Origin: Pseudooceanicola antarcticus
Lineage (GTDB): Bacteria > Pseudomonadota > Alphaproteobacteria > Rhodobacterales > Rhodobacteraceae
DNA length: 64,000 nucleotides
Assembly: GCF_900215355.1 (NCBI RefSeq)
Contig: NZ_OBEA01000003.1
Coordinates: forward strand, 496,001 to 560,000
Reading direction: 5' to 3'
Part shown: positions 10,113 through 20,635 of the stretch, in pieces
Layout: every line of letters begins with the position of its first letter
Position numbering within the stretch: position 1 is the first letter of the stretch
Made by a program: the position numbers and the translations under genes
Notes under the pieces: model-generated
The model's database searches: none
What the model was told of the DNA's origin: nothing
Seen by the model: the letters and a program-made list of their open reading frames with translations, nothing else

Positions 10113-12320
10113 TCAGCCTGCGGCGCGTTCCTCGGGGCGGAAGCCGATCAGGTCGGAGACAGAGAAACGGCCCGCCTCGGCCTTGCGGATCTTGCCGTCA
10201 CGCAGCAGCTGGCCGAAGGCGCGCAGCCCGTCTTCACGGGTGAACCCCTCGGGTTGCAGCGACTTCACGCGGCTCATCAGCTGCGGGCGCGAGAAGAGCG
10301 GCTGGTGCTCCATGAACGACATGTAGGAGGCCGCGGCCTCCAGCATTTCCCCAAGGCTGCGCGCGCCAACCGAGGCGGCGTAATCGACAAAGCTCTGATC
10401 CGGCGCGTCGCTGGCGGTGCCCTCGGGCGTGGGGTCCTCGGCACGGGCCAGGTCGGCGATGGAGACGCGGCGCGGGCGGACGGGGCCGGGGCTTGCGCTG
10501 CCGGCGTCGATCCGTTGCTCGGCCACCAGCTTCAGCGGCGCCGGGCGGGCGAGGCTGCGTCGGGCCGGGGTGGTGCTTTGATGGGCGATGGCCGGGCGGC
10601 GCGGGCGGACCACCTGGGCCAGGTCCTCGCGGTAGGCGTCGGTGGTGTCCTCGCGCGGCGCGAAGTCGGAGCCCGCCTCGCGTTCGGCCTTCTTGGCCGC
10701 CACGGCAGCGCGCAGATGCGCCAGGGCCGAACGGCGGCGCGTCGAGTCTTCCTGTTCAAAGTGATGATCGGTCTCGCGCAGGATGCGGTCCATCTGCGCG
10801 CCGTGATCGGTGTCGCGCAGGCTGCGGCCGGGTTCGCGCGATTGCGGTGCCGGGTCCACCCCGGCCTCGATCTGTGCCAGCTCGCGCAGCAGCTCGTCTT
10901 CCTGCTCGGGCGAGAGCGAGCTTTCGGCGGGCTCGCGGCGCTTGACCTTGATCACCCGCGCCATGGGGCGGGGCGGGGCGGGGGCCTCTGCCTCTGCCTG
11001 GGCCTCGGGCTCAAGCCGCAGCGGGGCCTCTTCCGCCACCTCGGGCAGATCATCGGAGGCAAGCGGTTCAGGGCTTTCCTGAGCGGGTGCTTCTGCGGCT
11101 GAGGTTTCGGGGGCCACGGCTTCGGAGGTGTCGGCCTCCGGTGCTTCGACTGCGGTATTTTCGGCGACGGTTTCTTCAGCGGCGGGGGCTTCAGCTTCGG
11201 GCGCCTGGGGAGACTGCGCTTCGGGCAGCAGAGCCGCCTGACGGCGGCGCGCGACCACGTCGCGGATACGTTGCAGTTTCAGCGCCACATCCGTGGGGCC
11301 AAGGCTGGCCGGTGGCAGCTCTTCTCCGTCGTCGGGTTCGGCGCGGGCAATGGCGATGGCCTCTTCGGCCTCGGCGATGGAATCCCAGCCCTCGCCCGAA
11401 GGCGTCAGGTCGGGGGTCGCCACGTCTTCTACGCTCTCGTCCTCGATCTGCGTTGGGGCTTCCGAGACAGGCATCTCTTCCGCCAGTTCCTGGGCCTCGA
11501 CGATCTCGGGGGAGGTCTCTGCCTCGGGGGTCACGTCGTCCAGCGCGATGGCGGCCGCGAAGTCTTCCTTGGCCGTGACCTCGTCGCGCAGAAGCGCCTC
11601 GATGCTGTCTTCGATCAGGGTTTCGGCCTCGGGACCCTCGGGGTCGCTCAGGTCGAGCTCGGGGGCGTCGACCTCGGGCAGGGTGAGCTCGGGGGCCGCA
11701 TCCGCCAGATCGAAGTTGTCCTCGGCGGGGGGCTGGGGCGCTTCGGTCGGGCCGCTGGCCTCGACCGCGGCCGTGTCTTGCGAAAGCTGGGCGGTGTTCC
11801 CGGAGGCGGCCGTCTCCAGCTCGGGCTCGGAGGCCAGCAGGGCAGCATCGCCCGCAGCGGCCAGGGCGGCGGCGATACGCGGCGCGCGCAGGGGGCGCAG
11901 CGGCATCTCGTCGTCCGAGACGTCCTCGGCGTCGACCGCTTCGGGCTGCGGCTCGGGCGCGACCGCCGGGGCCTCGGCGACAGGCGCGGCGGGCGCTGTT
12001 CCCTCGGGCGCAGGCGCTGCGGCCTGGGGGCTGGCGGTCTCGGGGGCGGGTTGCGTGGCGGCGGCCTGATCCGGAGAGAGCACGATATTGCCCTCTTCCG
12101 TGCGCGCATTCACCCGGCGCGAGGTGTTGCGCTCGGCCAGGCGAGCTAGCATGTCGGCATCGGGGGTGGGGGGCTCGGCACCGAAGTAACGGTCATCGGC
12201 GGCGAGATCGCGGAAGTATTCCGCGATGGCCTTCATCGTATCGAAAGCGTCGTCGAATCCCTCCAGGGTACAGGAGAAGGTCCCATAGGAAACGGTCAGG
12301 ATCTTGTTCGACTCTACCAC
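10113..12320 (-). CDS. Long acidic Ala/Glu/Pro-rich protein, unknown function
   Basis: The product (735 residues from the GTG at 12320) has three parts. A compact N-terminal domain (about 1-65, KILTVSYGTFSCTLEGFDD onward) looks globular and conserved. A central 500-residue segment is dominated by Ala, Glu, Pro and Val and is almost surely disordered. A C-terminal domain of about 90 residues (from FVDYAASVGARSLGEMLEA) has a helix pattern like a winged helix. There is no signal peptide. The start is uncertain: GTG at 12320 has GAGAAG upstream, and a GTG at 12374 would add 18 residues. It is divergent from thiN. Role unknown; the layout suits a scaffold or regulator. Confidence 0.75.
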   Translation of the reverse strand: MVESNKILTVSYGTFSCTLEGFDDAFDTMKAIAEYFRDLAADDRYFGAEPPTPDADMLARLAERNTSRRVNARTEEGNIVLSPDQAAATQPAPETASPQAAAPAPEGTAPAAPVAEAPAVAPEPQPEAVDAEDVSDDEMPLRPLRAPRIAAALAAAGDAALLASEPELETAASGNTAQLSQDTAAVEASGPTEAPQPPAEDNFDLADAAPELTLPEVDAPELDLSDPEGPEAETLIEDSIEALLRDEVTAKEDFAAAIALDDVTPEAETSPEIVEAQELAEEMPVSEAPTQIEDESVEDVATPDLTPSGEGWDSIAEAEEAIAIARAEPDDGEELPPASLGPTDVALKLQRIRDVVARRRQAALLPEAQSPQAPEAEAPAAEETVAENTAVEAPEADTSEAVAPETSAAEAPAQESPEPLASDDLPEVAEEAPLRLEPEAQAEAEAPAPPRPMARVIKVKRREPAESSLSPEQEDELLRELAQIEAGVDPAPQSREPGRSLRDTDHGAQMDRILRETDHHFEQEDSTRRRSALAHLRAAVAAKKAEREAGSDFAPREDTTDAYREDLAQVVRPRRPAIAHQSTTPARRSLARPAPLKLVAEQRIDAGSASPGPVRPRRVSIADLARAEDPTPEGTASDAPDQSFVDYAASVGARSLGEMLEAAASYMSFMEHQPLFSRPQLMSRVKSLQPEGFTREDGLRAFGQLLRDGKIRKAEAGRFSVSDLIGFRPEERAAG

Positions 12321-12478
12321 TTTACTTCTCGCTCGTTCTGGCGGTACGGACCGCTGCACGGGGGGCTTTCTCACCTGCCTTGCTTAACGGGATGAGACAC
12401 AACCGGACCGAATCTAAGGTGCAGAAGGTCTCATTTTGTGACGATATTGTGGTATCTGTCCAATCGGAGCCGAAAAAC

Positions 12479-13171
12479 ATGGGTCTTGAGACGGTTGTAG
12501 AGAGCGCGGGCCCCGTCGCGCTGATTGGCGGAGGGGCGGTGCCGGGCTCGGTCGCGGAACGGATTCTGCGGCTCTGCGGCCCGGTCGTGGCCGCCGATGG
12601 CGGGGCCGAGTACCTGCTCAGGGCGGGCCGTATGCCAGACGCGGTGATCGGGGACATGGACAGCCTTTCGGGGACCTGGGCACGGCTCGTCCCGGAGGCG
12701 GCGCTGCATCCCGTGGCCGAACAGGAAAGCACGGATTTCGAGAAATGCCTGACCCGGATCGAGGCGCCGCTGGTCATCGGCACGGGCTTTCTCGGGCCGC
12801 GTTCCGATCACATGCTGGCCGCGCTTTCGGTGCTGGCGCGCTTTCCGGCGCGCCGCTGCCTGCTGGCCAGCGAGAGCGACCTGGCCTTCCTCTGCCCGCC
12901 CGAGCTCGTGCTGGATCGCCCTGTCGGAGAGCGTTTTTCGTTGTTTCCCATGGGCTTGACCTCTGGCCGGTCAGAGGGGCTGGAATGGCCCATCGACGGG
13001 CTGGACTTCGCGCCCGATGGCCGCATCGGCACGTCGAACCGGATCTCGGGCCCGCTGCGGCTGCGCATGGATCAGCCGGGCATGGTGGTCATACTGCCGG
13101 TGGCGGCGCTGGAGGATGTGGCAACGTCGATTTGCGCAGGCTCCGCGCCATGGAGCGCTCGCGCAGGATGA
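12479..13171 (+). CDS. thiN: Thiamine diphosphokinase
   Basis: The 230-residue product matches thiamine pyrophosphokinase, which transfers pyrophosphate from ATP to thiamine to give the coenzyme. Visible are AADGG at 38-42, GDMDS at 58-62 and QESTDFEK at 82-89, the family's substrate and metal-binding acidic motifs in order. ATG at 12479 is the first start that fits the family N-terminus. The last 83 bases overlap the 3' end of the minus-strand DMT transporter gene in antisense, yet both C-termini read naturally. Confidence 0.85.
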   Translation: MGLETVVESAGPVALIGGGAVPGSVAERILRLCGPVVAADGGAEYLLRAGRMPDAVIGDMDSLSGTWARLVPEAALHPVAEQESTDFEKCLTRIEAPLVIGTGFLGPRSDHMLAALSVLARFPARRCLLASESDLAFLCPPELVLDRPVGERFSLFPMGLTSGRSEGLEWPIDGLDFAPDGRIGTSNRISGPLRLRMDQPGMVVILPVAALEDVATSICAGSAPWSARAG

Positions 13172-14036
13172 TGTAGAGGCCCGCGCCGATGGTCACCAGG
13201 ATGCCGATCAGCGCCAGCCCGTCGGGGAAATCACGGAAGATCAGCCAGCCGATGAGGGTGGCGAAGGGGATCTCGAGGTATTGCATCGGCGCCAGGGTGG
13301 CCGAGGGCGCATAGCGCAGCGACCATGTCATCAGCAGGTGCCCGAAAGAGCCGATGAGGCCGATCCCGGCCAGCAACAGCAGGCTGCCCTCTGGCGGCAC
13401 GACGAGGGACAGCTGCGTCCAGCCGGCCAGATGGGCGACCAGGGCCACCGGCAACAGCAGCCCCATGGCCATCACCCCCGAGGTCGCCTGCATGGCGATC
13501 GGGTCCACCTGCTTGGCGATCTGGCGGGTGACCAGCATGAACAGCGAGAAGAAGACCGCCACGCCCAGGGGCAGCAGCGCCGGCCAGCCGACCTCGGCGA
13601 AGCTGGGCTGGATCACCATCAGCGTGCCGACAAAGCCAACCGCGCAGGCCGCAAGCCGGCGGGGCCCGACCTCTTCGCCCAGCACCAGCCAGCCGAGCAG
13701 CAGCATCAGGAAGGGCATGATGAAGGCAATGGCAATGGCATCTGCCAGGGGCAGGTAGCGCAGGGCGGTGAACATGAAGCCGATGCCGCCGATATGGAAG
13801 ATCGTGCGGTAGAGCGTGAACCGCGTCGCCCGCGCCGACATGCGCCAGCGGCGGCGCCCGAGAATGACGAGAGGCCCCAGGAAGAGCGCCTGCATGGCGA
13901 AACGCGCGGTGAGCAGGGCGAAGACGGGCATGACCTCTCCCAGCAGCTTGGCGAGGCTGTCGCCCAAGGGGGCCAGCAGGCAGAAGCCCATCATGAGGGA
14001 AATGCCCAGGAGGGGCTTGTCGTCGGTATTGCTCAT
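13089..14036 (-). CDS. DMT-superfamily transporter (EamA type)
   Basis: The 315-residue product is almost entirely hydrophobic with about ten predicted membrane helices in two EamA halves (typical segments FCLLAPLGDSLAKLLGE and ADAIAIAFIMPFLMLLLGWLVLGEEVGPRR). Family members export amino acids, nucleotides or other small metabolites; the substrate cannot be read. The C-terminus ends in a Pro-rich tail. It converges on thiN with an 83-base antisense overlap. ATG at 14036 gives a normal start. Confidence 0.85.
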   Translation of the reverse strand: MSNTDDKPLLGISLMMGFCLLAPLGDSLAKLLGEVMPVFALLTARFAMQALFLGPLVILGRRRWRMSARATRFTLYRTIFHIGGIGFMFTALRYLPLADAIAIAFIMPFLMLLLGWLVLGEEVGPRRLAACAVGFVGTLMVIQPSFAEVGWPALLPLGVAVFFSLFMLVTRQIAKQVDPIAMQATSGVMAMGLLLPVALVAHLAGWTQLSLVVPPEGSLLLLAGIGLIGSFGHLLMTWSLRYAPSATLAPMQYLEIPFATLIGWLIFRDFPDGLALIGILVTIGAGLYIILRERSMARSLRKSTLPHPPAPPPAV

Positions 14037-14419
14037 GCCGAGACGCTAGGGGCGGGGCGGGGGGAAGTCCATGGGGGATGGGGGGCTGGGCGCAGGGAGC
14101 GAACGTTGCACTCGAAAGGGCGCGCGCCCGGAGCGGCTGTCGCTTTCGGCCCTAAGCCGACCTTCGCCAAGTCTGGCCTCGCTGCGGTGCAGCTTCTTCA
14201 AACTGGCCATCGGTGGCATCGTGCAACATGGCATGCCAAGGTCAGCTCCGCGGACTTTTCTGCCGTTCAGTTCACTTGTTGCAATGGCGGCTTTAGGAAA
14301 GTCCTACTGGAAACGGCTGATATCGCACACCCGGTAAATGGGTAAAGTGCAAGGACATAGTAGTTACTCGAAACCGAAGCTATACGTACCAGAATTTTGA
14401 CCCAAGGCGGTGATCGGCG
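14037..14419. other. Intergenic region, left border of A/T-richer island
   Basis: No gene is supported. Base composition shifts here from G+C-rich to mixed. At 14154-14168 lies a 15-base sequence whose exact inverse occurs at 14989-15003, on the far side of the next small gene. From about 14260 the DNA has many A/T-rich runs unlike the flanks. Confidence 0.6.
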
Positions 14420-15003
14420 ATGTACAAAATATTTCATGGAGACCTGTATATTGGAGACACGGATCTCGCGAAGGGCGGTGATGCTCCGATGGGGTGTGCG
14501 GAAGGTGAATTCCAACCAACTAAAGATTTTGTTAAGTTTCGAACGTCTGTGCCGCCGCAAATACAAAACGAACCGGACTACAAAATCTGGAATGGTTTGA
14601 TTTTGAAGATGGAAGATGGGCGCAGAGTTCAGTGTATTGATGTTGTCCTGCATCTCTTTGAATTTGACGAAAATGACATTGAAATACTTGTGGATGCTCT
14701 TGGTGTTAGCGAACCATCCTATGCAACGTTGTTCCCGCAGCATGTTGAAGCCTACGAAAGCCAGTTCAGGGCATAGGTGTTTGATCCCACGGTTTAATGG
14801 TGTGATCCAGACGAGACAACTTGATTTCGTCTTTTTGGACTATGCTGGAAACACCGACATTCGCACACAGCGCAGAATCGAACAGTTTGGGCTCGAAGCG
14901 GTCGTGCGGTAGTCTGGCAGGCTCCTCGCCCAAATGAACCGGGTCCGCGGAGCGCTTCCGGCCCAGATCGGGCATTTGACCCGGGTGCGGCGAAGGTCGG
15001 CTT
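14154..15003. repeat. 15-base inverted repeats flanking a small gene
   Basis: AAGCCGACCTTCGCC at 14154-14168 is exactly inverted at 14989-15003. The pair brackets the 118-residue unknown gene at 14420. The match does not extend further on either side and there is no transposase between, so this is either a relic of a mobile unit or two copies of a common intergenic motif. Confidence 0.5.
14420..14776 (+). CDS. Hypothetical protein, 118 residues, island gene
   Basis: This small acidic cytosolic protein (no signal peptide or membrane helix) begins MYKIFHGDLYIGDTDL and contains DAPMGCAEGEFQPT. I recognise no family. Codon use is clearly A/T-richer than in the flanking core genes, as in the two other island genes. 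The ribosome binding site is weak (AAGGCGG, 17 to 11 bases upstream). It is bracketed by 15-base inverted repeats. Small acidic proteins in islands are often immunity or antitoxin proteins, but nothing in the sequence proves that. Confidence 0.6.
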   Translation: MYKIFHGDLYIGDTDLAKGGDAPMGCAEGEFQPTKDFVKFRTSVPPQIQNEPDYKIWNGLILKMEDGRRVQCIDVVLHLFEFDENDIEILVDALGVSEPSYATLFPQHVEAYESQFRA

Positions 15004-15112
15004 CGAGCCAATTACCGCATTTCTGCAACGCCGCGAACGTCCGACTTTATTGTCTAGCCTGCGTGGATGTCAGATCGTAGGTCGTATGAAGAGCGAGCAA
15101 ATGTATTGCTGC
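14777..15112. other. Intergenic region within island, nothing coding seen
   Basis: About 335 bases between two unknown genes pointing toward each other. It holds the right 15-base inverted repeat at 14989-15003. Short open frames on both strands have no ribosome binding sites and no recognisable product. No clear terminator is visible. Confidence 0.5.
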
Positions 15113-15943
15113 CTAACCCTTGATCGCGTGGATCAGGTTCGTAAGCGTGACACTGTAAATTGAATTTTGACAGAGCAGCGCGGCTGTTTCTCCTCTGGTT
15201 GCGATTAAGGGTCGTTCGACTGGCTTGCCGCCGACTGTCAGTTCGACCAGCAGCCCTTCCCTCGACCTGAAATCAAAGAGGAATACGCCATCGCCGTCAT
15301 AGCTACCGAAAAAGGCGATATGATTGCCACCAACCAAGATTGCATTGGCGCCTTCGACGGGGCACCTTTCAATGATGATCTCTGCGACCCTATTCGAAAT
15401 TCGCGCAAGATAAAAGTCTGTATGCGGATAGATCCATATGTCGCCTCTCAGGTCCAGATGCATCGCGTAGAGATCGAAAATGTCATGGCCAGAGGAATTT
15501 TTGAAATCATATAGCAGGTCGCCAGTATCCGAGAACTCACGTAGTCCCAAGGGGTTCTCGTCAAAGTATCCGGTCCAAATACCATCCTTGCGATCGACGA
15601 TGACATTCTCGATCGCGTCGCCCAATCGGAACTCGCGGAGAAGTTTCAAATCTTGCGAGAAAACTCGGGCGTTGCTTTCGGATTCTCTGCAACGACTATT
15701 TGTTATGAGCCATCGGCCATCTGAAAACCTCTGAGCGGCGGGAAATTGGAGGTCCTGGCGCTTGAATTCCAAAGGCTCATGGCAGACTCCGACGCAATCA
15801 ACGAATACTGACCCGTTATTGTCAGGCCACGCAAAAAGCAACTCTCCACGCGCATCAAAATTAAGGGAACGGTAGACCTCGCTGGTTAACGGCTTGACTC
15901 CCGCTTGCTTCGTCAGTTCCAGAGTTGGTGTTGCCATAGTCAT
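15113..15943 (-). CDS. Hypothetical beta-propeller-like protein, island gene
   Basis: The 276-residue product has no signal peptide. It shows repeated strand-rich units of about 40 residues with patterns such as GRWLITNSRC, DGIWTGYFDENPLG, GDIWIYPHTDFYLARI and NHIAFFGSYDGDGVFLFDF, which look like blades of a six- or seven-bladed propeller. No enzymatic motif is seen. ATG at 15943 is chosen because AGGA lies eight bases upstream; a second ATG follows two codons later. The gene is A/T-rich compared with core genes and points toward the small gene at 14420. Confidence 0.65.
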   Translation of the reverse strand: MTMATPTLELTKQAGVKPLTSEVYRSLNFDARGELLFAWPDNNGSVFVDCVGVCHEPLEFKRQDLQFPAAQRFSDGRWLITNSRCRESESNARVFSQDLKLLREFRLGDAIENVIVDRKDGIWTGYFDENPLGLREFSDTGDLLYDFKNSSGHDIFDLYAMHLDLRGDIWIYPHTDFYLARISNRVAEIIIERCPVEGANAILVGGNHIAFFGSYDGDGVFLFDFRSREGLLVELTVGGKPVERPLIATRGETAALLCQNSIYSVTLTNLIHAIKG

Positions 15944-16474
15944 CCGTTCCTGAACGTGCTGCAATCAACACCTAAATCATTTATGTAAGACGTGATAGCC
16001 TGATGATCGCGGATGGATTAGATTATCCGTTGAAGCGCCGATGTCGAATGACAACTCCATCCCGCTATGGAGGCCTTGGTGCGATACGCAGCGAATGGCA
16101 GCTTCCCGCCCTTCGTGTCCGTGCCTGGCGACATGCTGCATCTGGTACAAATGTCTTGGAAAGGCTGGGTCCAGTCATTCGCTGCGACCGCCACGAGTGG
16201 CCGCTATGCGCAGGAAGCGGACATGCCAGGCGTGCTGTCTCCAGCCGCGCATTTAGGCGTTTCCGTGCCCTTTGTCGCCGTTGGCCAATGGGTCAAGATG
16301 CTGCGGCGCGGTCCGTCAGAGCCGCCATTCGATGCAAGGCCAACACCCGCTAGCACTTTGAAGCCGGATAAACGGGCCGAACAAGCGCTGAATACGGCAG
16401 GTTGAGCAGCTCCAAACACACAGGTCTCCGCCCAGTCGCTATCGGAGGCGTCGAGAAACCCGATCCTCTAATCA
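15944..16474. other. Intergenic region within island, no supported gene
   Basis: Roughly 530 bases without a convincing gene. A 112-codon open frame (16067-16405, +) exists but has no good start signal, and its translation lacks features of a folded protein. The DNA contains short degenerate motifs of the type CGAATGGCAGCTTCCCG and GGAAGCGGACAT, which look like dispersed noncoding repeats rather than codons. A decayed gene cannot be excluded. Confidence 0.5.
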
Positions 16475-19400
16475 TCACTCGAACCTTTGCTCGTCATCTC
16501 TGTCTATTTTTGCCTCGCGGTCGCGCTCTCTCTGTTCCACCTTTCTTTGCTTTGGCACCACCTCTGCAAGGTATTCCGCCACTCCTGGAATTGCTGCTTC
16601 GGAGATTGCTTCAAGCGCCGTTATCCGCTGGCCAACGATGTTTGCGCGACTGCCAGACCAACTCATTGGAACTATGTGTGCAACAAACACCGAAAGCACC
16701 TCGACCGGGTTCGGCGAGGCCTCGACTAGCGCCAAGCCTTGTTCCGTTAAGTTATCGTTTCCGCCATCGCGACCGCTTCCGAATGGTGAGATGGCTCGGG
16801 CAACCAAACTCCAAGCCGTGGCTTCGCCCGCGTTTTCGCACCAGTCAGTAAGATCGGTGGGTTCGATTTCAGAAAGTGGGTTCTCAAAGTGTGAACTGCC
16901 TTCGAAGGCGCGAAAGCGCTTGTAATCCTTGATGTCGCCTTGAAGAAGAGCACGTGTCAGGATGGAGTCGTACAAGAACTTGACTATAGTAGCGACAGCA
17001 GAGTCGAATCGATAGTAGTACTTTGCGGCGCCGTCTGCCGGGTCAAATAGGCTGTCGAGCAACTCTCCAATCGCCGCATCATCACAATCGTACTTGAGGC
17101 AGTGCCCAAGGACCCGGTTCATTCGGTAATCGCCATTTCCACCGGGGTCGTTGTCGTGTCCGAGTAATTGCTTTGCGGCGGCTCGTAGCGCGAGGCTGCG
17201 CAAGCGCTTTCCAAACAGTTCTTCTGTATCTTCCTTGTCTTGAAGTCTCATTGAAAGCCCCTCCAAAAGGGCGCTCTCGCCGCCTTCTTTCGTCACCATC
17301 ACACTTGCGAGCTGTTCCGCTCTCACAGAACCTCCATTTTGATACTCGTCCCGCCACAACAGTACTTCGAACTCATGTGGATTGTCCGCGTCGCGGAGTG
17401 CCGCCAAGCAGCGCTCGAAGTCTTGATCAGAGAAGCTACCTTGCGGATGGAGCATCACGATGATTGGACGGAGTAAATCGTCAGAGGCGGCTTCATCTAG
17501 CAACATAGCGGTCAAGGCCTGATCGGTGGTCGCAATTTCATTCAAGGCACCGCACAGCACACCATAGTTAAAATGCTTAGTACCTAGGGACTTGAGGCCC
17601 TTGACGAGTGCGTCCCATGTGGATCGACAATCTGAAGAGCATCGTATCAGGCCTTCACCGAAGGGTAATAGGTATGGAGCCCAACCCGGGTTGAAAAAGC
17701 GATAGGCTTGCTCCTCAAGCATCCTGTCAGACTGCCGACAGCGGCAACCCAAGATCCGCGCTTTCTCACTTAAACGCTTGCGCGAAGCTTCATACTTCGA
17801 AGGCTCGTCAGGATCGAAGTCCTCGTCCAAAGACCACATATCGTTGCCGGGATTAATAACGAGAGCTTCGATTTCTGAAAGTAAGTCTTGTGGCGCAAGC
17901 TTCTCTTCCAGAGACGCAAGGAGCGCCGCTCCGCCTTCATCTCGCTTCTCTTCTGCGATCCGCCGATAATCAAAGTACAAAGCCGATCGCACCGCGTGCC
18001 AACCTTCTACCCAAGGCAGCTTGTCATTTATGGCTTTGGAAGCGCCGATGATTTCAGCACGAAGATCGGGGTAGCGCCAAAGTCCACGAAAGTTCGCGGC
18101 AAGGAGCCTTCTGCACGATTTGGAAACTGACTGGGAGTTGGATTGGGATCCATCGAAGGCGATGTCTATGAAAGTCCTAAACCATTGAAGCCTTTCTTTG
18201 AAGTTCGGATTGTAGCCGTAGTCTCGAGGTCGCGCCCCAAACTCGAACGAATTGTTGCCTGACCAACGGCTAGCCTCAAGTGCGGAGTCTAAGAGTTCGG
18301 CGCCAATCTGGACGCGCGTCTCGTTGCCAGAGTTCAAGGCAGCTCGAACGATTTCAGCCCTTTGGGCAGTAGTTGCATGAGTTCCAGATAGGTATGCTTG
18401 AAACAAACCCTTTAGCTTACTTCGTACACTATCATAATTGTTGCCTGGGTCTTCGTGGTCCGCTACCACCAGCATCGCAGTAACAGCGCGTTCAAAGAAC
18501 TCAGGGTAATACGCAAGCCCCACCAATATGCCGAGCGCTACCGACCTAAATGAGTCTCGTGGTTCAAGAGCCGCCAAGGTTTCAGGATTTGAAAATGAAG
18601 TCTCCACCAACTCGAGTGCTCGAGCCGGAGAAACAGGCGCAATGTGCATCAGAAGTTCTCGACCATGTTCGTTCAAGGCCGACAAGTCAGATAGGAGGCC
18701 CCCGTCGGAAATCCATCGATCTACAATTTCTACTGCAATGGGGTGCTCGTGTAGGAAACCGAGGCGGCGTCCAAATGACTTTAAGAGTCGCGCGCCTGCC
18801 TTTCCCTCAAAGGTATCCGTGAGTTGATCAATTGGAATATTGTTAAGGGCCTCGGAAGCCAACCTGTTGGCAACCGCGTGTGGCAGAACGGCTCGCCAGC
18901 GCGACCTCTTCTGCGCAACTTGCCGATCAACGAGGGTTTGCGCTGCGCGATGCATTCGGAGCCTCGTCTGTTCACACAGCGCGCCCAGAAGTGCGAGCTC
19001 ATCTACTCCTTCTTCGTCACTTTCGATTGAGAAGGAGTAAACCAAAGACAGAGCTTCGGCTTGCTCTTTGAGGCCGGTGTCAAGGTCGTGTCTTTGGTAA
19101 AATAGACGATTGAAGAGTTCCTCATCCGTCAACCGGCCAAGCGTCTCATCGATTGGTGCGGCGTCAGCAATCGCGATTGCGAGCCGAGCGTTTCCCTCTG
19201 AAAAATCTGCAATCTTTGCCGCGTTCACATTTCCCAGTTCGGGGTGCCTTCTGAGGAGTAGCTTCTTCGCAATTTGCGGCCCGAAAGCCTCCAACTGCAC
19301 CACTTCTGTGGTCTGCGGCTTGTCCTCACGGATATCATACTCGACGGTAATCAGTCGGAGGGAATTCTCTTGCTTGGAGAGCCTCGAAGCCAGAGAATTG

Positions 19401-20320
19401 TGTAGGTCAGAGGCGCAATTGTCCAAAACAATAGTGGCAGAAACGTCCTGCGCAATCATTGCGTCGACTAGGGCGCGAGCGGAGGGTTCCGGTTCGTCGC
19501 TGATATCTGCATAGATCACTGAGGTGCGGTCCAAAGGAGCGTGGCCAACCCCGTCCTCAAAAAGCGCCTGCACGAAGCGAGATTTGCCAACACCTGAAAG
19601 GCCGGTGATCCTGATTGATTTTCCTGAAGTATCAAATAGTCTTCGGACAGCGTCTATGGCCTCACCAAGCGGTAAAGGCTGTTGAGAGGTTGAGGGAACG
19701 ACTACTCTAACGCCGTCGTCCAATATTAGGTCGTCGTTCTCGTCTGCAGGAGTGGCGCTCCACCTCCCAAACGGACGCCACCCAGCAAGTGGTCTTCCAA
19801 CCACCTCACGAACCCACATCTGGACTGCAGGATGCTGGCGCAGCCATAGGTGCAAGCGAGAACAGTCGTAGTAATCCACGTGGATCGCATTGGAATTATC
19901 AAGACCTACTAACGCCTCGGCCATGGCTTCGATACGGCGCTGGTATGTCAGCGGAGAACAGTCCTCGGTTGAAGCAATGATGTAAGAGCCACTGTTTTCA
20001 ACGAGTTCATAAATGATGCGTTTCAGGGTTCCTTCCGAAAGCATTTCGTCCAGAATTCCGGCGCGTGCCATGCTTTTGGCCTTGGCCTGAAACACGTTGT
20101 CGGCTCTTGGGATGAAATCTCCGTCGAAGCCCTCTCGAGTTACCGTAACCCTGACATCCACGCCTCCATCGGGCGCTGTCAAAGATCCTGACCATCTCAC
20201 ATCACGCAAGTAGCCACCGCGGGCGGTAAGCTCCGCTTCGCACAGTCTGGCAACGAGTTCCTCTAGCTGACTGTCGTCTAGCTGCGCCAGCTCATCCTTT
20301 TTTGGTTCGAAAATTGGCAA
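16475..20320 (-). CDS. Mrr-like nuclease fused to STAND P-loop NTPase; putative anti-phage sensor (Avs-like)
   Basis: The 1281-residue product has a nuclease-like N-terminus: a Glu-bearing first helix (E20/E21), then D51-G-G-V-D55, then Q78-A-K80. This is the PD-(D/E)xK layout of Mrr/Cap4-type nucleases. A P-loop NTPase follows with Walker A GLSGVGKS at 240-247 and a Walker B-like ATIVLDNC at 295-302 (D300). The remaining 900 or so residues are helical without obvious repeats, the usual place of the ligand sensor in STAND proteins. Known Avs3/Avs4 proteins combine such a nuclease with STAND and recognise phage terminase or portal; this one is shorter. The start is TTG at 20320: a stop lies nine codons upstream, no ATG comes before the nuclease motifs, and GGA precedes at normal spacing. 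It is A/T-rich, so probably acquired. Confidence 0.78.
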   Translation of the reverse strand: MPIFEPKKDELAQLDDSQLEELVARLCEAELTARGGYLRDVRWSGSLTAPDGGVDVRVTVTREGFDGDFIPRADNVFQAKAKSMARAGILDEMLSEGTLKRIIYELVENSGSYIIASTEDCSPLTYQRRIEAMAEALVGLDNSNAIHVDYYDCSRLHLWLRQHPAVQMWVREVVGRPLAGWRPFGRWSATPADENDDLILDDGVRVVVPSTSQQPLPLGEAIDAVRRLFDTSGKSIRITGLSGVGKSRFVQALFEDGVGHAPLDRTSVIYADISDEPEPSARALVDAMIAQDVSATIVLDNCASDLHNSLASRLSKQENSLRLITVEYDIREDKPQTTEVVQLEAFGPQIAKKLLLRRHPELGNVNAAKIADFSEGNARLAIAIADAAPIDETLGRLTDEELFNRLFYQRHDLDTGLKEQAEALSLVYSFSIESDEEGVDELALLGALCEQTRLRMHRAAQTLVDRQVAQKRSRWRAVLPHAVANRLASEALNNIPIDQLTDTFEGKAGARLLKSFGRRLGFLHEHPIAVEIVDRWISDGGLLSDLSALNEHGRELLMHIAPVSPARALELVETSFSNPETLAALEPRDSFRSVALGILVGLAYYPEFFERAVTAMLVVADHEDPGNNYDSVRSKLKGLFQAYLSGTHATTAQRAEIVRAALNSGNETRVQIGAELLDSALEASRWSGNNSFEFGARPRDYGYNPNFKERLQWFRTFIDIAFDGSQSNSQSVSKSCRRLLAANFRGLWRYPDLRAEIIGASKAINDKLPWVEGWHAVRSALYFDYRRIAEEKRDEGGAALLASLEEKLAPQDLLSEIEALVINPGNDMWSLDEDFDPDEPSKYEASRKRLSEKARILGCRCRQSDRMLEEQAYRFFNPGWAPYLLPFGEGLIRCSSDCRSTWDALVKGLKSLGTKHFNYGVLCGALNEIATTDQALTAMLLDEAASDDLLRPIIVMLHPQGSFSDQDFERCLAALRDADNPHEFEVLLWRDEYQNGGSVRAEQLASVMVTKEGGESALLEGLSMRLQDKEDTEELFGKRLRSLALRAAAKQLLGHDNDPGGNGDYRMNRVLGHCLKYDCDDAAIGELLDSLFDPADGAAKYYYRFDSAVATIVKFLYDSILTRALLQGDIKDYKRFRAFEGSSHFENPLSEIEPTDLTDWCENAGEATAWSLVARAISPFGSGRDGGNDNLTEQGLALVEASPNPVEVLSVFVAHIVPMSWSGSRANIVGQRITALEAISEAAIPGVAEYLAEVVPKQRKVEQRERDREAKIDRDDEQRFE

Positions 20321-20635
20321 TGCAAATCCAACTCTGGTCGAGCGTCACTTAGACGCCGTTCAGAAGCCTAGCGTTAGAACAGTTAGTGAAAAAAAGCTAC
20401 CCAGCTTAGCATTTAGGTGAGTCACACCTGCACACCATGACACTTTAGTACTTCGTAGAGTTTCCTGGAATGGGCCTGCAGTTCTCTCAGTTGGATAAGG
20501 TCTGCTTTCAGCGAGTACCCAGTCTCGACTCGGGCCTGCGGCGAACTTCTGGTTTCCGCTCATAGTGACGGCTCCTGCGGCCATGCTGCTCCTTGCACCC
20601 GTGGGTGCAAGCCGACGCTCGCGCCCAACTCCCCC
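20321..20635. other. Right border of the A/T-richer island
   Basis: About 315 bases with no supported gene. The promoter for the minus-strand STAND gene must lie here; A/T-rich runs near 20380-20400 could supply it but no clear -35/-10 pair stands out. Composition returns to G+C-rich at about 20520. A perfect palindrome sits at 20592-20611. Confidence 0.5.
20592..20611. terminator. Perfect 9-base-stem hairpin after sdaA
   Basis: CTTGCACCC and GGGTGCAAG pair around two central bases, 25 bases beyond the sdaA stop. With no U-tract it is a weak terminator candidate. It also marks the point where the A/T-rich island meets core DNA, so it could be a border mark instead. Confidence 0.4.

Follow-up and report, generated by a model that had tools for sequence, protein, structure and literature searches.

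What is the function of a long minus-strand gene that lies in a pocket of A/T-rich DNA between core genes of the alphaproteobacterium Pseudooceanicola antarcticus? The gene occupies positions 16475-20320 of a 64-kb window (the whole stretch of DNA analyzed; contig NZ_OBEA01000003.1, positions 496,001 to 560,000) and encodes 1281 amino acids from a TTG start codon, which is retained in all six close relatives that we aligned. An earlier note, made from the letters of the window, had given exactly this reading frame and proposed that its product fuses a nuclease to a STAND nucleoside triphosphatase (NTPase) and a helical sensor, as a distinct, unrecognized subfamily of the Avs anti-phage proteins. 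Our sequence comparisons place the protein, almost certainly, in the PD-Lambda-4_A family, component A of the PD-λ-4 defense system, and it occurs in this genome without component B. We favor the reading, to which we give a probability of roughly 60% for the whole chain, that it is a self-contained, horizontally mobile anti-phage gene of this family with an NLR/Avs-like build, acting as a ligand-triggered, ATP-switched nuclease. A defense role as such appears considerably more probable than the full chain.

Family and predicted build of the protein

The PADLOC model for PD-Lambda-4_A (PDLC03991) matches the protein end to end, from position 3 to position 1283 of its 1283, with 1298.9 bits. At E ≤ 1, PADLOC, which includes Avs models, gives no further match, and NCBIfam, which includes the Avs4 model NF041815, gives none. 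Pfam returned nothing above cut-off, with AAA_16 below it; a sequence search against solved structures gave one weak P-loop match (E 0.24); and hhalign against one Avs4 protein aligned the P-loop only (5.4% probability). Because no Avs sequence family matched, we do not file the protein under Avs, and we rejected the proposal of an unclassified Avs subfamily given the full-length match to a family that already has a name. The resemblance to Avs proteins holds at the level of build: a predicted layout of effector enzyme, STAND NTPase, and helical sensor is shared with Avs4 and Avs5, and Avs5 is among the listed solved folds that match the model. Avs3 and Avs4 carry TPR repeats at their C termini. 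The C terminus here, described earlier as lacking obvious TPR repeats, is indeed not of that type, but it does contain helical repeats, which are HEAT/ARM-like. The gene and its predicted parts, all on the minus strand, are as follows.

16475..20320, PD-Lambda-4_A homologue, a predicted nuclease-STAND-solenoid protein
19796..20320, N-terminal Mrr-type PD-(D/E)xK nuclease domain, residues 1-175 (invariance, hhalign, secondary-structure order)
within 19796..20320, nuclease motifs E21, D51-G-G-x-D55 (20156-20170), and Q78-x-K80 (20081-20089)
19283..19720, STAND NTPase core, residues ~201-346 (invariance, AlphaFold2, fold matches, subthreshold AAA_16)
19580-19603, Walker A GLSGVGKS, residues 240-247
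19421-19423, Walker B aspartate D300
18881..19282, helical domain plus winged-helix-like domain, residues ~347-480 (AlphaFold2 secondary structure)
16478..18880, C-terminal, almost wholly helical HEAT/ARM-like solenoid, residues ~481-1281, a putative sensor (AlphaFold2, fold matches)

We assessed conservation in 26 intact homologues, a set that omits L007, L016, L023/L027, L033, and L035 (broken, truncated, or too far diverged) as well as L021, whose A protein is nearly identical to that of L020 (L numbers denote loci compared). E21, D51, D55, Q78, and K80 are invariant in all 26, as are G240, S242, G243, G245, and K246 of Walker A and the D300-N301-C302 triplet. The catalytic and Walker residues picked out by eye were thus the right ones, except that E20, named alongside E21, is E in 19 homologues and R in 7. 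An hhalign comparison with a Mrr_cat set (93.8%, E 1.8e-7) brings the first-helix E, DGGxD, and QxK into register with those of Mrr_cat PD-(D/E)xK nucleases; unlike them, the domain here is fused to STAND and solenoid parts and is too diverged for a direct Pfam match. The AlphaFold2 model has an alpha-beta-beta-beta-alpha-beta order at residues 16-151, in agreement with the nuclease fold suggested for the N terminus. A scan with a Cap4_nuclease collection gave no match anywhere and is hence uninformative.

After the P-loop, the model contains the predicted STAND modules: a nucleotide-binding domain (NBD) followed by helical and winged-helix-like domains, an arrangement like that of NLRC4 and CED-4. 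Matches to the NTPase fold include NLRC4, CED-4, and Avs5; the structural alignment with NLRC4 covers residues 183..547, and residues 401-500 are the stretch with the most invariant positions (26). NLRC4/CED-4 type receptors carry a CARD, whereas this protein would have its nuclease in that place, and identity in the aligned rows is 11-12%. The fold comparison used the whole model, with the nuclease part searched only within it, and absence from the VIA-align lists excludes no family. The solenoid is less conserved than residues 1-560, and residues 1101-1200 are the least conserved stretch of the protein. Its terminal FE dipeptide (16478-16483) is invariant in all 26 homologues, 24 of which have QxFE, and is possibly a docking or autoinhibitory tail. 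Together, the model and the comparisons support a protein composed of a Mrr-type PD-(D/E)xK nuclease, a STAND NTPase, and a HEAT/ARM-like solenoid.

The same parts could also be read differently. Cleavage that depends on DNA modification is a known trait of the Mrr family, and here a nuclease and an NTPase share one chain; the protein might be a Type IV-like restriction factor, in which the Mrr-type head would directly cut foreign, possibly modified DNA, the NTPase would act on DNA in the manner of McrBC, and a protein ligand would play no part. However, STAND-type NBD-helical-winged-helix-like modules joined to a solenoid of ~800 residues fit ligand sensing better than DNA translocation, and Pfam at E ≤ 1 finds no SRA or other base-reader domain in the protein. 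Of the 11 systems whose components bind or cleave DNA, Vassallo et al. (PMC9519451) report direct immunity for 7, which would suit such a factor; on balance, we think this reading unlikely.

Component A without component B

PD-λ-4 originates from the work of Vassallo et al. 2022 (PMC9519451), a functional selection in Escherichia coli that reports phage protection for E. coli systems only. A table in a review that cites this work places PD-λ-4 under P-loop NTPase rather than PD(D/E)XK nuclease, in the part available (PMC10952713). We found no mechanistic study of PD-λ-4 in the literature searched, outside which lay subscription papers and preprints. The protein in the window matches component A over its whole length, with ~40% identity to E. 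coli A and identical invariant motifs. In E. coli R32_14_1F, the gene for PD-Lambda-4_B (303 aa, 650 bits) begins 45 bp downstream of that for A (1283 aa, 2532 bits), in an island that adjoins a tmRNA gene and an integrase. By contrast, when the window was searched with E. coli B by tblastn, the best E was 0.54. The real difference from PD-λ-4 is this missing B, together with the spread of the gene as a single-gene stretch; we therefore file it as a PD-Lambda-4_A protein without B and not as a complete PD-λ-4 system.

Is such a protein half of a system? It might need PD-λ-4B, or a partner encoded elsewhere, in which case the lone gene would be an orphan with weak or no defense activity. The close spacing of the two genes in E. 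coli R32_14_1F favors this explanation, as do the counts among 5426 E. coli genomes: at a coverage of 80% or more, 131 carry A, 145 carry B, and 131 carry the joint 4809-bp stretch, for which A by itself would be just long enough to pass. (A distant search found some A relative in 173 of these genomes. Among 14 control genomes, none matched A, and E. coli matched B at E ≤ 0.001 but not at 1e-10.) Other observations speak against it. A search for PD-Lambda-4_B in 15 genomes or records that carry A, the source genome among them, found it in none; the set omits L020, L003, other E. coli loci, and viral contigs. Of 31 distinct places where A lies, tblastn put B next to it in 3, all three with E. 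coli-like sequence; these places are a convenience sample in which L014, L022, and L035 have little or no downstream DNA. E. coli STEC434 (L019) has A without an adjoining B, the gene being followed by an AbiP2-type reverse transcriptase (12075-13613, plus strand) in place of B. Conversely, a PD-Lambda-4_B relative occurs at L080:5961-6860 (plus strand) with no A within the 8.5 kb examined; B may lead an existence of its own, apart from A. Among the 12 E. coli rows listed, 10 have two annotated open reading frames (ORFs) under B (compare L021:11898-12810), where R32_14_1F has one.

The state of the lone copies also bears on this question. The gene and ~240 bp upstream of it share 85-87% DNA identity with copies in Rhodophyticola, Roseicyclus, an uncultured member of the Rhodobacteraceae, Shimia, and a Phaeobacter conjugative plasmid, and 79% with a copy in Hoeflea, while the remainder of the island matches none of them. 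A alone moves as a 4.0- to 4.3-kb stretch between genera and onto a conjugative plasmid. All 21 pairs among seven copies have a ratio of nonsynonymous to synonymous substitution rates (dN/dS) of 0.09-0.17: these copies without B, one in the window and six in other contexts, are intact and under purifying selection. We regard dependence on a partner as improbable. A search for terminal repeats of the shared stretch gave nothing. L003 (a metagenome-assembled genome of an uncultured member of the Rhodobacteraceae) and L010 (the Phaeobacter conjugative plasmid) carry A genes that hardly differ (dS 0.008), which points to recent transfer.

Distribution of A is patchy. Within the family, 4 of 149 genomes have it at E ≤ 1e-20, the source genome included; relatives occur in 42 of 72,556 plasmid records and at 13 loci of a viral-contig collection, and none in 50,697 phage records at E ≤ 1e-5. 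The A-only form was seen in alphaproteobacteria, Enterobacter, Burkholderia, Candidatus Entotheonella, and a cyanobacterium. Separately, a 1337-aa frame of L079, of which a part was fetched, matches Mrr_cat and by eye reads helicase-like.

Island, flanks, and neighbors

The A/T-rich island that the earlier note saw between core genes is evident in base composition: six 1-kb steps between 14 and 20 kb have a GC fraction of 0.503-0.562, and the other 58 steps of the window are at least 0.607. An EamA transporter gene borders it on one side and an L-serine dehydratase gene on the other; flanking genes are core-like and also include those for thiamine pyrophosphokinase and ribose-5-phosphate isomerase A. 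The features outside the gene are the following.

14075..20633, low-GC inserted island, from the EamA transporter gene to the serine dehydratase (GC steps and congener comparison)
20321..20563, conserved 5' flank that moves with the gene and is a likely promoter region (DNA matches and alignment of close relatives)
16277..16474, 3' tail of the shared stretch, complete only in L001 and L004

The DNA matches of six close relatives run through the 5' flank as far as 20559-20563, except in one, where the match ends at 20442.

We fetched this locus from 10 of the 19 congeners with a serine dehydratase match. The interval between EamA and serine dehydratase is only ~130-280 bp in three of the ten (L053, L054, and L056) and holds 2.9-9.3 kb of other DNA in four (L052, L055, L058, and L059); one locus has no EamA match (L057), and the stretches fetched for two others (L051 and L060) contain no left flank. 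The most fitting reading of the island is thus an insertion, at a spot that varies. We rejected the notion of a defense hotspot at EamA-sdaA, since the congeners examined carry little or other DNA there and, of the PADLOC families, mad3 alone matched at E ≤ 1e-20 among 109 ORFs of these loci.

The gene had been described as alone. Inside the island, it is in fact adjoined by small ORFs and a 283-aa ORF (15113-15964, minus strand), which is propeller-like by eye; the 283-aa ORF was found in none of the other loci compared. We considered this ORF as a disguised B or partner and rejected it: it has no PADLOC match at E ≤ 1, E. coli B has no match there, the other loci compared lack it, and among 149 family genomes it occurs at E ≤ 1e-8 in 1, the source genome.

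Elsewhere, homologues sit in islands and on plasmids, some adjoining defense genes. At E ≤ 1e-20, 46 PADLOC families match among 144 neighbor ORFs of 12 loci, and 71 match among 85 ORFs of 10 viral-contig loci, counts that, judging by the best 25 of 46 and the best 25 of 71, include many redundant models of one gene as well as PD-Lambda-4_B itself; in a control of 109 ORFs from the ten serine-dehydratase loci, the only family matched was mad3 (4 members). The 144 ORFs are drawn from 156, omitting 12 of L003, whose A is nearly identical to that of L010. Tested individually, Gabija A and B (L030) and a DISARM-type helicase (L008) account for 3 of 10 long neighbors, and the AbiP2-type reverse transcriptase of E. 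coli L019 belongs to a further set. The link to mobility and defense proposed earlier is thereby borne out for some relatives.

As the role of this copy is a prediction, the protein could instead be a STAND regulator or a housekeeping protein with no part in defense. Its patchy occurrence, its location in a low-GC insert at a site that lacks the gene in congeners, carriage on a conjugative plasmid, the defense neighbors of some relatives, and the full-length match to a defense family model all argue against this, and we consider it very improbable.

Proposed mode of action and its meaning

The domain parts are the reason for which we read the protein as a ligand-triggered, ATP-switched nuclease. 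In this scheme, the C-terminal solenoid would keep the protein inactive and recognize a phage product. (For Avs proteins, activators are phage proteins, for instance terminase or portal.) Ligand binding would let the STAND module swap ADP for ATP and oligomerize; clustering would join the N-terminal Mrr-type PD-D-QxK domains, which would then cut DNA and stop the phage directly or via death of the infected cell. Defense function, ligand sensing, oligomerization, and DNA cleavage by this copy are what we infer.

Several observations weigh against this interpretation. PADLOC defines PD-λ-4 by components A and B, and PD-Lambda-4_B (PDLC03992) has no match in the source genome, which is 97.4% complete. 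The Mrr_cat match covers query positions 12-85 only, 1 of 20 column shuffles also reached 73% in that comparison, and no Pfam nuclease model matches the N-terminal domain directly. Foldseek TM-scores are low (0.20-0.27 by query in the NLR-type rows of E ≤ 0.001), the first Foldseek match is a clamp-loader subunit, and AAA+ proteins score close to NLRs. Most neighbors tested match no defense family (7 of the 10 long ones, and 2 of 3 others besides B in the set with the AbiP2-type reverse transcriptase), and the control ORFs came from core regions rather than mobile elements, so part of the difference from neighbors may reflect mobile DNA generally. Some relatives are broken or misassembled (L007, L023/L027, and L033); broken copies are expected for mobile defense genes but for dispensable ones too. 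Finally, the activity ascribed to this copy is deduced from its letters and a predicted structure.

A broader picture, which we find about evenly balanced, is that PD-Lambda-4_A forms a separate family of NLR-like immune receptors parallel to Avs1-5, with the single gene as its basic unit and B as an E. coli-type add-on; the A-only form would act alone, with its own phage trigger read by the HEAT/ARM-like arm. The family had been named before. In the literature searched, PD-λ-4 comes with little mechanism beyond the name itself; its component A now becomes a concrete, testable, predicted NLR-like sensor-nuclease with named catalytic residues. Intact, selected copies of A exist without B, and detection rules that demand A and B together would miss them. 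At ~4.3 kb with its flanks, the gene offers a compact, single-gene test object for what the HEAT/ARM-like arm senses.

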